The notes beneath the pieces were generated by a model. The model was not told where the DNA came from, searched no databases, and was given only the letters and a program-made list of their open reading frames with translations. From NCBI GenBank assembly GCA_037200525.1, contig JBBCGG010000001.1, positions 769,526-833,525 on the forward strand: DNA of 64,000 bases, read 5' to 3'. Shown here one piece after another: positions 16,116-19,871 of the stretch. Position numbers and translations under genes: made by a program. Origin of the DNA: Methylocella sp. Its GTDB lineage: Bacteria > Pseudomonadota > Alphaproteobacteria > Rhizobiales > Beijerinckiaceae. Each line of letters opens with the position of its first letter. The stretch's first letter is position 1.

Positions 16116-17343
16116 GTGACCAAAACCAATAGCCTTGAAGACCATGCGACGAGACGCTTTCGCCTTGCGGGCAAAGCCTATCTAGAGAGCGGCGATCCTT
16201 TTTTCGCGCCCATAGATAGTTTGCGCGCCGAAGCCGCAGCCACCGGGCGCCATTTCACCAGTTTCGCCAATTATGATTATCTGGGACTCGCCTCCCATCC
16301 GATGGTCAAGGCGGCGGCCTCGGAGGCGCTGGGGACTTTTGGGGGTCGGCGCTCTTGCGTCCCGTCTCGTCGGCGGCGAGCGGTCGATGCATCACCTTCT
16401 TGAAGAAGGACTCTCCAAATTCATCGGAACCGACTCGGCGTTGACCTTGGTCAGCGGCTATTTGACCAATGTCACGACGATTTCGCATCTCCTCGGCTCG
16501 CGAGACGCGCTGTTCATCGACGAATTGTCGCATAATAGCATCGTCAGCGGCGCCAAAAGCGCAGTCGCCGAAACCATCATTTTCCGTCACAATGACCTCG
16601 ATCACCTCGATTTTCTATTGAGCGAGCGGCGGGAAAACTACCGCAACGTCCTCATTGTGGCCGAAGGGCTCTACAGTATGGACGGCGATATCGCCGACCT
16701 GTCGCGCCTCGTCGAGATCAAGGAACGCAATAAAGCGTGGTTGCTGATTGACGAGGCTCATTCTCTCGGAGTGCTCGGAGCGGACGGGCGCGGCCTGTGC
16801 GAATATTCGGGGGTCGATCCGCAACGAATCGATCTCATCATCGGCACGTTGTCGAAGTCGCTCGCGTCCTGCGGCGGGTTCGTCGCCGGCAAGGCGGCGG
16901 TGATCGAATGGCTGCGCTACACGCTGCCCGGTTTCGTCTATAGCGTTGGCCTCTCCCCGGTTATTTCCGCCGCCGCCGCCGCCGCGTTGCAATTGATGCA
17001 AGAAGAGGCTTGGCGGCTTGAGCAACTGCGTAAAAACGCCGAATTATTCATGGATCTCGCCCATGAGGCTGGTCTCGACACGGGTCCCGCCATTGGGCGC
17101 GGCGTCGTTCCGATCCTCTTTTCCGACAGTCTCGAAACTTTGGCCGCCTCGCGTCATTTGATGGAGAACGGCTATTACGTGCCGCCGATCATCCAGATTG
17201 GCGTGCCCAAAGACCAGCCACGCTTACGCTTCTTTCTCTCCACCACACATACCGAGAGCGAAATCCGAGGCGTCATCGACCTTTTGGCCAAGCGGGATGC
17301 AGTTGCGGAGGCTCCCGCCCATGCCTTGATCGCCGCGACCTGA
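16116..17343 (+). pseudogene. spt: Alpha-oxoamine synthase, serine palmitoyltransferase type, with one frameshift
   Basis: Two overlapping plus-strand frames (GTG start 16116, and a second ending at 17343) form one PLP enzyme of about 409 residues. They join exactly (LGTFG then VGALASRLVGG) if one G is removed from the five-G run at 16341-16345. This is either a homopolymer sequencing error or a real disruption. Family signatures: FANYDYLGL, DELSHNSIVSGAK, LLIDEAHSLGVLG and the PLP-lysine segment GTLSKSLASCGGF. Such enzymes condense an amino acid with an acyl thioester. Neighbouring ceramide-synthase-like and DES1-like genes point to serine plus palmitoyl thioester giving 3-ketosphinganine, but AONS or KBL activity cannot be excluded from sequence alone. 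Confidence 0.75.
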
Positions 17344-17585
17344 ACTCCCTGGCGTCGCGCTAAACCCAAACCATGCGAGTTTTCGCGACGGCGGCAGCTA
17401 CTTGCGAAGAATTCTAGGCGTTGAGCGGTTTTAACTGTTGGGTTGCTTCGGCAAGTCTGGTCGTTTTTAATTGAAGGGACGCCGCGCGCTTTTTGTGCTT
17501 TGAGGCGTGGCCCTGTCACAAAACTCGCAGCGTTTTCACGATCATGCTCAAGGGGCCCTATTACCCGCATTCCAAAGGTTAAACT

Positions 17586-18737
17586 ATGCCCATAGGCGCG
17601 GTAACAGTCGTTCCAGCAGATGGACTTCTGAATTTTCTTACCTTCTGCCGATTGCCGCGGCTGATCTACGAGGGGCAAAACGGCTTCGCGCCTCCGCTCG
17701 ACGCCGAGCGTTGGACATTGCACGCGGCGCGGCTCAATCCGCATTTCAAGCAGGTCGATCGGCAAGCCTGGATCGCTCACAAGGATGGCAAGCCCGCCGG
17801 CCGCATTTTGGCGCAAATATACAAAAAGGATGCGACCTTGCCGGTCGGCGCATCGGGGGCGCAATTCGGCTGCCTCGATGCGATAGACGACGGCGCCGTT
17901 GTCGAGGCTCTGACGCAAGCCGCCGAAACCTGGCTGCGCCAGCGAGGCGCAACAATCATTCACGGGCCGTTTTCGCCGTCGATCAACAGCGAGACTGGCA
18001 TGCTGGTCGAAGGCTTCACAGCTCCGCCGATGGTGTTCATGCCCTGGAATCCGCCCTATTTGGTCGAAGCCGTGGAACGGCTCGGCTACGTCAAGGCGCA
18101 CGATCTTATTTCTTACCGTTATGAAGTGACGGAGAAGGACCGGACGACGCAGCCAGGAATTCTGGCGCGGCCGGAGTGGCGCGACAGATTGAAGATCCGG
18201 ACATTGAACCTCAAAAAGATCGACGCAGAAGCGCCGGTCATTGTCGATATTTTCAACGACGCCTGGAGCGAAAACTGGGGTTTTGTTCCTTTCACGCTCG
18301 AAGAATTCCTGTCGACCGCCGATGGCCTTAAAATGGTGATGCCGCCGGAAGGCGGTTTTATGATCGAGCTTGATGGAGCGCCGCAGGCCTTCGGCGTCAT
18401 TTTGCCGAACCTGCATGAGATCACCGCCGATCTCGCTGGGCGGCTGTTTCCGCTCGGCTTGCCGCGCGTGATCTCGCGCATCAGGCGCCATGCATTCAAG
18501 TCCGGACGGCTCGCGCTGTTTGGCGTGCGCCGCGCGCTGCATCGTAAAGCCGCCGGGGGCGCGGTCATTCTGGCCTTCATCGAGGAATGCCGCCGGCGCA
18601 GCGCCCGGAGTTCAATCGACCATGTCGAATTCGGCTGGGTTCTGGAAGACAATGTCGGAATGCGCCGACCGATCGAACTATCCGGCGCGCGCATCGATAA
18701 AATTCATCGCATTTATGAGAAAAATATCGCTGCCTGA
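17586..18737 (+). CDS. GNAT/YghO-like acyltransferase, probable bacterial ceramide synthase
   Basis: A 383-residue protein with no signal peptide. It has conserved-looking N-terminal (FLTFCRLPRLIYEGQNGFAPPL) and central (IIHGPFSPSINSETGMLVEGF, then MPWNPPYLVEAVERLGY) blocks typical of the YghO-like GNAT group. Bacterial ceramide synthase (bCerS) of Caulobacter, which N-acylates the long-chain base, was described as a member of this kind of family. That and the flanking serine-palmitoyltransferase-type and DES1-type genes are the basis for the call. AAAGG lies 7 nt before the ATG. The 240-nt spacer from the upstream gene leaves room for a second promoter. The exact substrate is inferred, not seen. 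Confidence 0.6.
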   Translation: MPIGAVTVVPADGLLNFLTFCRLPRLIYEGQNGFAPPLDAERWTLHAARLNPHFKQVDRQAWIAHKDGKPAGRILAQIYKKDATLPVGASGAQFGCLDAIDDGAVVEALTQAAETWLRQRGATIIHGPFSPSINSETGMLVEGFTAPPMVFMPWNPPYLVEAVERLGYVKAHDLISYRYEVTEKDRTTQPGILARPEWRDRLKIRTLNLKKIDAEAPVIVDIFNDAWSENWGFVPFTLEEFLSTADGLKMVMPPEGGFMIELDGAPQAFGVILPNLHEITADLAGRLFPLGLPRVISRIRRHAFKSGRLALFGVRRALHRKAAGGAVILAFIEECRRRSARSSIDHVEFGWVLEDNVGMRRPIELSGARIDKIHRIYEKNIAA

Positions 18738-18797
18738 GGGTCGTCAAAACGCCCCCGCTGGGGCAAGCTCAACGCGGCTGGAAAAAGGGACATCGAC

Positions 18798-19871
18798 ATG
18801 AGCCTTCCCGCAATGGACTTCGGCGCCGTCGGCGCGAGCGAAGTAGCTCCGGCCGCCGACGGTTTTCTCCAGACGACAGAGCCGCGTCCGCATCCGCTGC
18901 GCCGGCGCGCCATCATGCGGGCGCATCCTGAGGTCGCAACCCTGATCGGCCATGACTGGAGAACGGCGGCGGTCACCTTATGCGTCGTCGTCGGTCAAGT
19001 CGTTATAGCGGGTGTGCTCGGTAGCCTCGGCCTCAGCTATTGGTGGCTCGCCGTGATCGTCGCCTTTGGCGTCGGCGCTTTCGCCAATCATGCGATGTTC
19101 GTCGTCATTCACGACGCCTGCCACAACGCCATTTTCAAAAAACCGTTCTTGAACAGGTGGGCCGGGATTTTAGCCGATCTGCCAAACACGGTTCCGACCG
19201 CAATGGGGTTTCGCTGCTACCACATCAAGCATCACTCCCATCTCGGCGATTATGATTTTGACGCCGATTTGCCGAGCCACTGGGAGGCCCGCCTGTTTGG
19301 GGCGACTTGGTATGGAAAAGCGACCTGGATGTTCTTTTTCGCCGCGTTTCAGCTGATCAGGCTCGGCCGGCTGAAAGGCTCCGTCCCGATGTGGGGTCGC
19401 TGGACGATCATCAACGGAGTCTGCGTCATCCTGTTCGATATCGCGGTTTTCGTTTTGCTCGGTCCCAACGCGCTTCTCTATCTGTTTGCATCGTTCTGGT
19501 TCTCGGTCGGCGGCTTGCACCCTCTTGGCGCGCGTTGGGTGCAGGAGCATTTCACCAGCGATCCGGTGCAGGAGACTTTTGATTATTATGGTCCGCTGAA
19601 CATTCTCGCGCTCAACATCGGCTATCACAACGAGCATCATGATTTTCCCGATATCCCGTGGACGCGGTTGCCGGAGCTGAAGAAAATGGCGCCCGAATTC
19701 TACGACGATCTGAAGACGCATAAGTCGTGGAGCGGACTGCTGGTCCAGTTCATCTTCGATCCGCGCTTCACTCTTTATACAAGAGTCGATCGCAGCGCCG
19801 CCAATACGCCTCCAGGTTTCGTCAAACCGAGGTCTTTGCAGCCCCAGAAGCCGGTCTCGACATCGATCTGA
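18798..19871 (+). CDS. DES1-like sphingolipid delta-4 desaturase
   Basis: A membrane desaturase of 357 residues. The N-terminus ([19 protein letters not shown]) resembles the Lipid_DES domain found at the start of eukaryotic sphingolipid desaturases. The three di-iron histidine boxes are intact: HDACH (105-109), HIKHH (142-146) and HNEHH (277-281). Further DES1-like blocks are [38 protein letters not shown] and [22 protein letters not shown], the last nearly identical to what I recall of human DEGS1. DES1 inserts the 4,5-trans double bond of dihydroceramide. Four hydrophobic spans are visible. AGGGACATCGAC precedes the ATG. With the two upstream genes it suggests synthesis of an unsaturated ceramide-type lipid. 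Confidence 0.8.
   Translation: [357 protein letters not shown]

Follow-up and report, generated by a model that had tools for sequence, protein, structure and literature searches.

Ceramide is separated from dihydroceramide by delta-4 unsaturation, and this unsaturation is, to our knowledge, usually credited to eukaryotes. In bacteria, dihydroceramides are listed among Bacteroides products in a review of bacterial sphingolipids in which the word desaturase does not occur (PMC10626005). Described bacterial systems close to the locus reported here include the Caulobacter ceramide pathway, whose reductase CerR is reported to be periplasmic (PMC11087976), and that of Pseudomonas fluorescens MYb115, in which PfSgaB, an alpha-oxoamine synthase (AOS) outside the earlier known set, is reported to have serine palmitoyltransferase (SPT) activity (PMC12134224). 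No bacterial delta-4 sphingolipid desaturase was found among the literature matches listed, nor any paper on Methylocystis together with ceramide; coverage was partial, with most subscription papers outside it. The locus lies at 16116–19871 of a 64,000-nucleotide stretch of DNA from Methylocella sp., a soil bacterium (Beijerinckiaceae, Methylocella/Methylocapsa group; contig JBBCGG010000001.1 of assembly GCA_037200525.1, positions 769,526–833,525; hereafter the window), itself part of a single 5.24-Mb contig that gives the whole genome around it. It combines an AOS, a YghO-like N-acyltransferase and a DES-type membrane desaturase.

Three consecutive plus-strand genes had been proposed in a preliminary description of this locus. 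All three were present, at 16116–17343, 17586–18737 and 18798–19871, but the first was not one open frame. Gene content, homology, linkage in relatives and predicted fold suggest that they belong to a split bacterial sphingolipid pathway leading to a delta-4-unsaturated ceramide, with the DES-type protein as the delta-4 desaturase. We give this reading a probability of roughly two in three. The ceramide product would probably be glycosylated.

The desaturase gene (18798–19871) encodes a protein of 357 amino acids. As the preliminary description had it, the translation contained HDACH, HIKHH and HNEHH as well as [20 protein letters not shown], the three histidine boxes lying at 19110–19124, 19221–19235 and 19626–19640, respectively, on the plus strand. 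Two Pfam domains passed their cut-offs, FA_desaturase (PF00487) with 104.7 bits against 29.7 and Lipid_DES (PF08557, the N-terminal domain of sphingolipid delta-4 desaturases; residues 23–55, 18864–18962) with 37.8 bits against 23, supporting the assignment to a DES-type desaturase with a Lipid_DES N-terminus. Nearness to animal and fungal DES1 rather than to bacterial desaturases was judged by such profiles. The third box, HNEHH, was identical to that quoted for plant delta-4 DES proteins (LAIHELSH, HLEHH and HNEHH) in a paper on peanut desaturases (PMC5731756).

For an alignment of relatives, the 80 best loci (see below) were taken; nine with a stop in the extended translation were dropped, and five of the other 71 were omitted as redundant by judgement, leaving 66 loci plus the desaturase of the window. 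These relatives shared 49–83% identity. FA_desaturase was matched by all 67 sequences and Lipid_DES by 66 (E up to 0.001), the lone exception probably being locus L054, which starts at residue 43. The histidines of all three boxes (H105 and H109 of the first; H142, H145 and H146 of the second) were invariant in the 67 sequences, the conservation of GYHNEHH (the third box) and GAFANHA[ML] being partly by construction, since both strings had served as locus search patterns.

Within its own genome the desaturase was the sole match to FA_desaturase and to Lipid_DES (E up to 0.001). Lipid_DES was matched in one of 289 genomes sampled evenly from the class of the window, with few close relatives included, and that one was the window's own; it was matched in none of 14 control genomes, five of which, including Caulobacter vibrioides, had FA_desaturase matches. 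The preliminary description had called a clustered desaturase of this kind unusual. This was borne out in the class sample but not for bacteria overall, where a relative was encoded in at least 538 stretches of bacterial and archaeal genomes at a tblastn E value of 1e-3 or lower.

An AlphaFold model built from the 67 sequences reached a pLDDT of 85.0 and a pTM of 0.84, compared with 71.4 and 0.71 for an earlier model from 15 sequences. Together with the FA_desaturase domain and the three histidine boxes, the predicted fold is of desaturase type. In a Foldseek search of viral predicted structures (BFVD, E up to 0.001) there were four matches at 12–14% identity, three named desaturases (E 1e-4 to 7e-4) and one cytochrome b5-like; giant-virus desaturases stood at 12–16% identity in this search, and none was named a sphingolipid desaturase. 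A viral scan for eukaryote-like DES proteins gave 63 pattern matches and no relative. Against the PDB, the two best Foldseek matches were chains of the chloroplast FtsHi motor complex (E 2e-5 and 1e-4), followed by AlkB (8f6t, E 0.003) and SCD1 (E 0.013–0.047) with TM-scores of 0.30–0.38. PDB sequence searches yielded no relative of the desaturase at E up to 1 and nothing informative with the acyltransferase profile. Thus, placement in the desaturase superfamily is sure, and the detail of the predicted fold is less so.

Identity with other members of this superfamily was rejected: carotenoid ketolase/hydroxylase models scored far below their cut-offs (CrtR 37.9 of 475 bits, CrtW 33.6 of 350), as did acyl-lipid desaturase models (DesB 29.4 of 500, DesA 26.4 of 500). 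A different FA_desaturase protein, with no Lipid_DES match, was seen at an alphaproteobacterial spt locus (L151:11924–13063), divergent beside a YghO-like gene; at a guess, it is a candidate sphingolipid acyl hydroxylase. It was hardly alike to the desaturase of the window (E 0.029 in a single comparison) and was rejected as its ortholog.

The best 80 of the desaturase relatives were examined for neighbouring genes with a single query each for AOS and GNAT (E of 1e-4 or lower), the AOS query picking up any alpha-oxoamine synthase. On this basis an AOS lay within 6.5 kb of the DES gene in 60 of the 80 loci, and a YghO-like gene as well in 50, the linked loci coming from Alphaproteobacteria, Verrucomicrobiota and one acidobacterial metagenome-assembled genome (MAG). 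In a set of 16 relative loci, AOS, GNAT and DES genes stood together in 15. The linkage extends far beyond one genus. Chance adjacency was rejected on the raw count of 60 in 80, a figure that overstates the independent cases, since loci within one group share history. Among the 20 loci with no AOS, 14 were from Bacteroidota, and in the other six the contig stopped less than 0.9 kb from DES on one flank. Of the 14 Bacteroidota genomes with DES, 12 encoded a protein scoring at least 486 bits with the Bacteroidota SPT model, whose cut-off of 640 was exceeded in one genome. In seven Bacteroidota loci (L086, L089, L091, L109, L111, L112 and L115) an open reading frame (ORF) of 115–135 amino acids, common to all, was observed directly 3′ of DES.

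Gene order differed between groups. In Methylocystis-type loci it was AOS, GNAT, DES and FA_hydroxylase (family scanned in L057), and in verrucomicrobial loci it was DES, FA_hydroxylase, AOS, CDP-alcohol phosphotransferase and YghO-like GNAT (family scans limited to L096). Nine of these verrucomicrobial loci carried two CDP-alcohol phosphotransferase genes. A DES tree, from which 21 of 68 rows had been dropped, supported four separate groups: Beijerinckiaceae–Methylocystaceae (94/100), L113/L114/L118 (100/100), the main set of loci from Verrucomicrobiota and Acidobacteriota (100/99), and the pair L090/L105 (100/99). Every supported group had an AOS near DES, the joins among groups being unsettled in the tree, and the linked AOS belonged to different clades.

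The second gene (17586–18737, plus strand) encodes a protein of 383 amino acids with full-length homology to YghO-like N-acyltransferases. It shared 40% identity with YghO of E. coli K-12 (366 aligned columns, E 7e-85) and 38% over 380 columns with the YghO-like protein of an alphaproteobacterial cluster (L156), in agreement with the YghO-type assignment made earlier. Among the other genes of that cluster are an SPT-like AOS, one whose product has an Epimerase domain and one that looks by eye like an acyl-CoA/ACP synthetase. No Pfam or NCBIfam model matched it; its verrucomicrobial relative in L096 matched Acetyltransf_1. From this homology the protein is a candidate bacterial ceramide synthase that would N-acylate a long-chain base or its keto form. 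At another locus, in an Afipia-labelled MAG (L102:161–1223), the YghO-like gene matched as two adjacent pieces, as though its frame were broken.

A CerR-type reductase had been placed outside the window, and we agree. The genome search called for in the preliminary description was made with a protein of L156, taken as CerR by its place beside the SPT-like AOS and its Epimerase domain; no ortholog was found, the best match being 32% identical over residues 5–204 of 308 (61.8 bits), and CerR was thus rejected as the missing reductase. A more probable candidate for this reductase is a short-chain dehydrogenase/reductase (SDR) encoded at 2.705 Mb, where it shares an operon with a glycosyltransferase. 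This second locus (2703112–2707715 of the genome contig; L167:6113–10716) comprised a ketoacyl synthase (KAS), a small protein, a MaoC dehydratase, the SDR and the glycosyltransferase. Relatives of its genes were found beside DES, the SDR in six of the 16 relative loci (within about 3 kb) and the glycosyltransferase in seven. MaoC, SDR and glycosyltransferase genes lay near DES in L032, with no KAS, and glycosyltransferase, MaoC and KAS genes in L033, with no SDR. The SDR of the window's genome was 72% identical to the DES-linked SDR of L041. In the genus group, 14 of 15 genomes carried DES and the same 14 carried a full-length SDR of at least 67% identity; the fifteenth (77% complete) had no DES and a piece of the SDR. 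The glycosyltransferase matched GT2 families and Glyco_transf_21 (30.7 bits against 21.7) and was, by NCBIfam, most like CelA and PgaC, far below their cut-offs. Glyco_transf_21 is the family that includes ceramide glucosyltransferases. Pfam scans of two relatives of the small protein, which in such relatives is about 150 amino acids long, gave no match.

Taken together, the two loci suggest the following route, whose substrates, step order, double bond and product are inferred. A 3-keto long-chain base would arise when the AOS condenses an acyl thioester with an amino acid, probably serine, and KAS and MaoC of the second locus may provide a special acyl chain. The YghO-like protein would N-acylate the long-chain base and the SDR would reduce the 3-keto group, in this order or the reverse. 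As CerR is reported to be periplasmic in Caulobacter, a pathway with another reductase may follow another order. The DES-type enzyme would then add a 4,5-trans double bond to the long-chain base, probably of dihydroceramide, and the GT2/GT21-like glycosyltransferase would attach a sugar. Each step is of a known enzyme kind; the chemistry of the DES-type enzyme is the least supported step.

Several observations weigh against this route. It was drawn from genes and their predicted products. The AOS frame was broken in this assembly, and this gene may therefore contribute nothing to the product in the strain unless a second AOS of the genome, at 3.70 Mb, substitutes for it. The AOS family scored higher with the bioF model than with every SPT model, and the alphaproteobacterial proteins found with an SPT model formed a separate clade (100/99) with the window's family outside it. 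In Bacteroidota, none of 14 loci had an AOS beside DES, some flanks being short. The best NCBIfam model of the SDR was an unnamed SDR, and its score lay under the cut-off (200.1 of 266 bits); moreover, the tie of the SDR and glycosyltransferase to the pathway rests on their neighbourhood in relatives. Known desaturase-type enzymes of the PDB matched the desaturase model only at Foldseek E values of 0.003–0.05. Finally, DEGS2, of the same family, is reported to be bifunctional and shows that such an enzyme can hydroxylate C4 instead (PMC10140171).

The broken synthase frame raises the question of whether the locus of this very strain is a decaying pseudogene cluster, which we consider improbable while granting it some weight. 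The N-terminal part of the AOS (16116–16403, plus strand, GTG start), in which NCBIfam AOS models matched within residues 26–86, was homologous to relatives by tblastn up to about 16343, where the frame was lost. The C-terminal part lay in a different frame (16273–17343, plus strand) and matched Aminotran_1_2 (Pfam, 135.4 bits), the two parts together indicating AOS membership. In the C-terminal part, however, an ORF of 356 codons ran without further stop and was 68–86% identical to members of its family from Beijerinckiaceae and Methylocystaceae loci, both downstream genes were open, and in relatives the AOS was a single intact frame of 408–410 codons in each of the 15 loci that carry it. A sixteenth locus examined (L032) showed no AOS within its 19.5-kb stretch. 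An assembly error and a recent mutation are each possible, and either would explain the frame as well as decay would.

The bifunctionality of DEGS2 bears on a further alternative, that the DES-type enzyme hydroxylates ceramide at C4, alone or alongside desaturation, giving a phytosphingosine-type base. We know of no sequence mark that separates desaturase from hydroxylase activity in DES proteins, and none was looked for. In Methylocystis-type and verrucomicrobial loci, on the other hand, a separate FA_hydroxylase adjoins DES, so that hydroxylation there has another candidate; no such gene adjoins DES in the window. We regard C4 hydroxylation as unlikely and delta-4 desaturation as the better account of the enzyme.

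Somewhat less probable is that the AOS and acyltransferase make another amino lipid (derived from alanine, glycine or cysteate, for example) and that the desaturase modifies that lipid. The synthase had been called SPT-type in the preliminary description, a label that the tests made here do not support. An intact relative (L031) scored 304, 299 and 210 bits with three SPT models whose cut-offs are 640, 500 and 670, and 349.5 bits with bioF, also under its cut-off (426), and none of the curated cut-offs, whether for SPT, BioF, Kbl or HemA, was reached by the intact AOS relatives. The SPT cut-offs are strict, as one of 96 genomes of the class passed with one model. In a tree of 36 AOS, where relatives stood in for the broken AOS of the window, itself left out, the window's family formed one clade (100/99) with the AOS of L102, the second AOS of its own genome, L114 and L118. 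Deeper joins were weak (73/87) and long branches met there; the known SPTs in this tree were matches to NF047603, one gene among them over its cut-off. Given these scores and this place outside the classical alphaproteobacterial SPT clade, SPT activity of the AOS is inferred.

In the AOS tree, the group sister to the family of the window includes an AOS near a polyketide synthase (PKS)-like gene, and PKS-derived sphingolipids are known (PMC12134224), both of which favour another amino lipid, as does the reported presence of 1-deoxyceramides in the Black Sea (PMC11334938). The YghO-like acyltransferase and the Lipid_DES domain suggest ceramide-like backbones instead, and a ceramide product is preferred here. 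The second AOS of the window's genome (3699979–3701385) was 50% identical to the C-terminal part of the window's AOS. Its locus (about 3691023–3701385 of the genome contig; L150:24–10386) held, by eye, a PKS-like ORF and a glycosyltransferase-like ORF, together with a CDP-alcohol phosphotransferase and a glycosyltransferase matching Glyco_transf_21; it may be an SgaAB-like locus for PKS-derived sphingolipids.

Action of the desaturase on the N-acyl chain or on glycerolipids (e.g. the unsaturated fatty acids of type II methanotrophs), with its place beside a sphingolipid-like locus due to history, would fit its being the only FA_desaturase match of the genome and the reported hydroxylation of an amide-linked acyl chain by the DesA-family protein CC_0202 of Caulobacter (PMC11324152), but is unlikely in view of Lipid_DES being matched in nearly all aligned relatives and in no control genome, though five controls had FA_desaturase, of the slight similarity to the L151 protein, and of a DES–AOS linkage that spans phyla.

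On the 5′ side of the AOS lay a long stretch without a recognised gene, preceded by a minus-strand ORF (14721–15350) and, further upstream, by an ORF of 1172 amino acids (11151–14669) that appeared by eye to be pyruvate carboxylase-like. Downstream of the desaturase was a gene for a DUF3280 protein (19893–20414).

Chances are about even that true ceramides of the sphingosine type, with 4,5-unsaturation, are made by bacteria of more than one phylum (Beijerinckiaceae and further Alphaproteobacteria, Verrucomicrobiota, Bacteroidota and possibly Acidobacteriota) through an enzyme of the DES1 family, with a synthase and a reductase that are both non-classical; in the methanotroph group these ceramides would probably be glycosylated. 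In that case, the feature that marks eukaryotic sphingolipids would be widespread among bacteria. With genes for a synthase, an acyltransferase, an SDR, a DES-type enzyme and a glycosyltransferase in methanotrophs that are in culture, bacterial sphingosine is open to direct testing; this gene set bears on the origin of the DES family and is a warning that sphingosine from environmental samples is not necessarily eukaryotic. The SDR and the AOS outside the SPT clade are candidate enzymes for bacteria without CerR or classical Spt.

Among known systems, the Caulobacter pathway (aasR, cerR, acpR, spt, cerS) resembles the one proposed here in its AOS and YghO-like N-acyltransferase. The window's genome differs in that no CerR ortholog was found, the AOS lies outside the classical SPT clade, a DES-type desaturase is added and a second locus carries KAS, MaoC, SDR and glycosyltransferase genes. 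PfSgaAB(C) of P. fluorescens MYb115 likewise has an AOS with reported SPT activity and a presumed 3-ketodihydrosphingosine reductase homologue (PMC12134224), and the AOS near a PKS-like gene in the window's own genome belongs to the group sister to the AOS family of the window; the locus of the window differs in having no PKS, SgaB being likened to its AOS by description. CC_0202, also likened by description, shares the FA_desaturase superfamily and a reported action on sphingolipids but differs in its target, an amide-linked acyl chain (PMC11324152), and Lipid_DES was unmatched in the controls, C. vibrioides among them. The eukaryotic DES1/DEGS1 family shares with the desaturase of the window the Lipid_DES and FA_desaturase domains, the three histidine boxes with a third box as in plant DES, and the lack of a cytochrome b5 domain detectable by Pfam. 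By this comparison of profiles, the window's enzyme differs from its eukaryotic counterparts in being bacterial and clustered with AOS and YghO-like genes.

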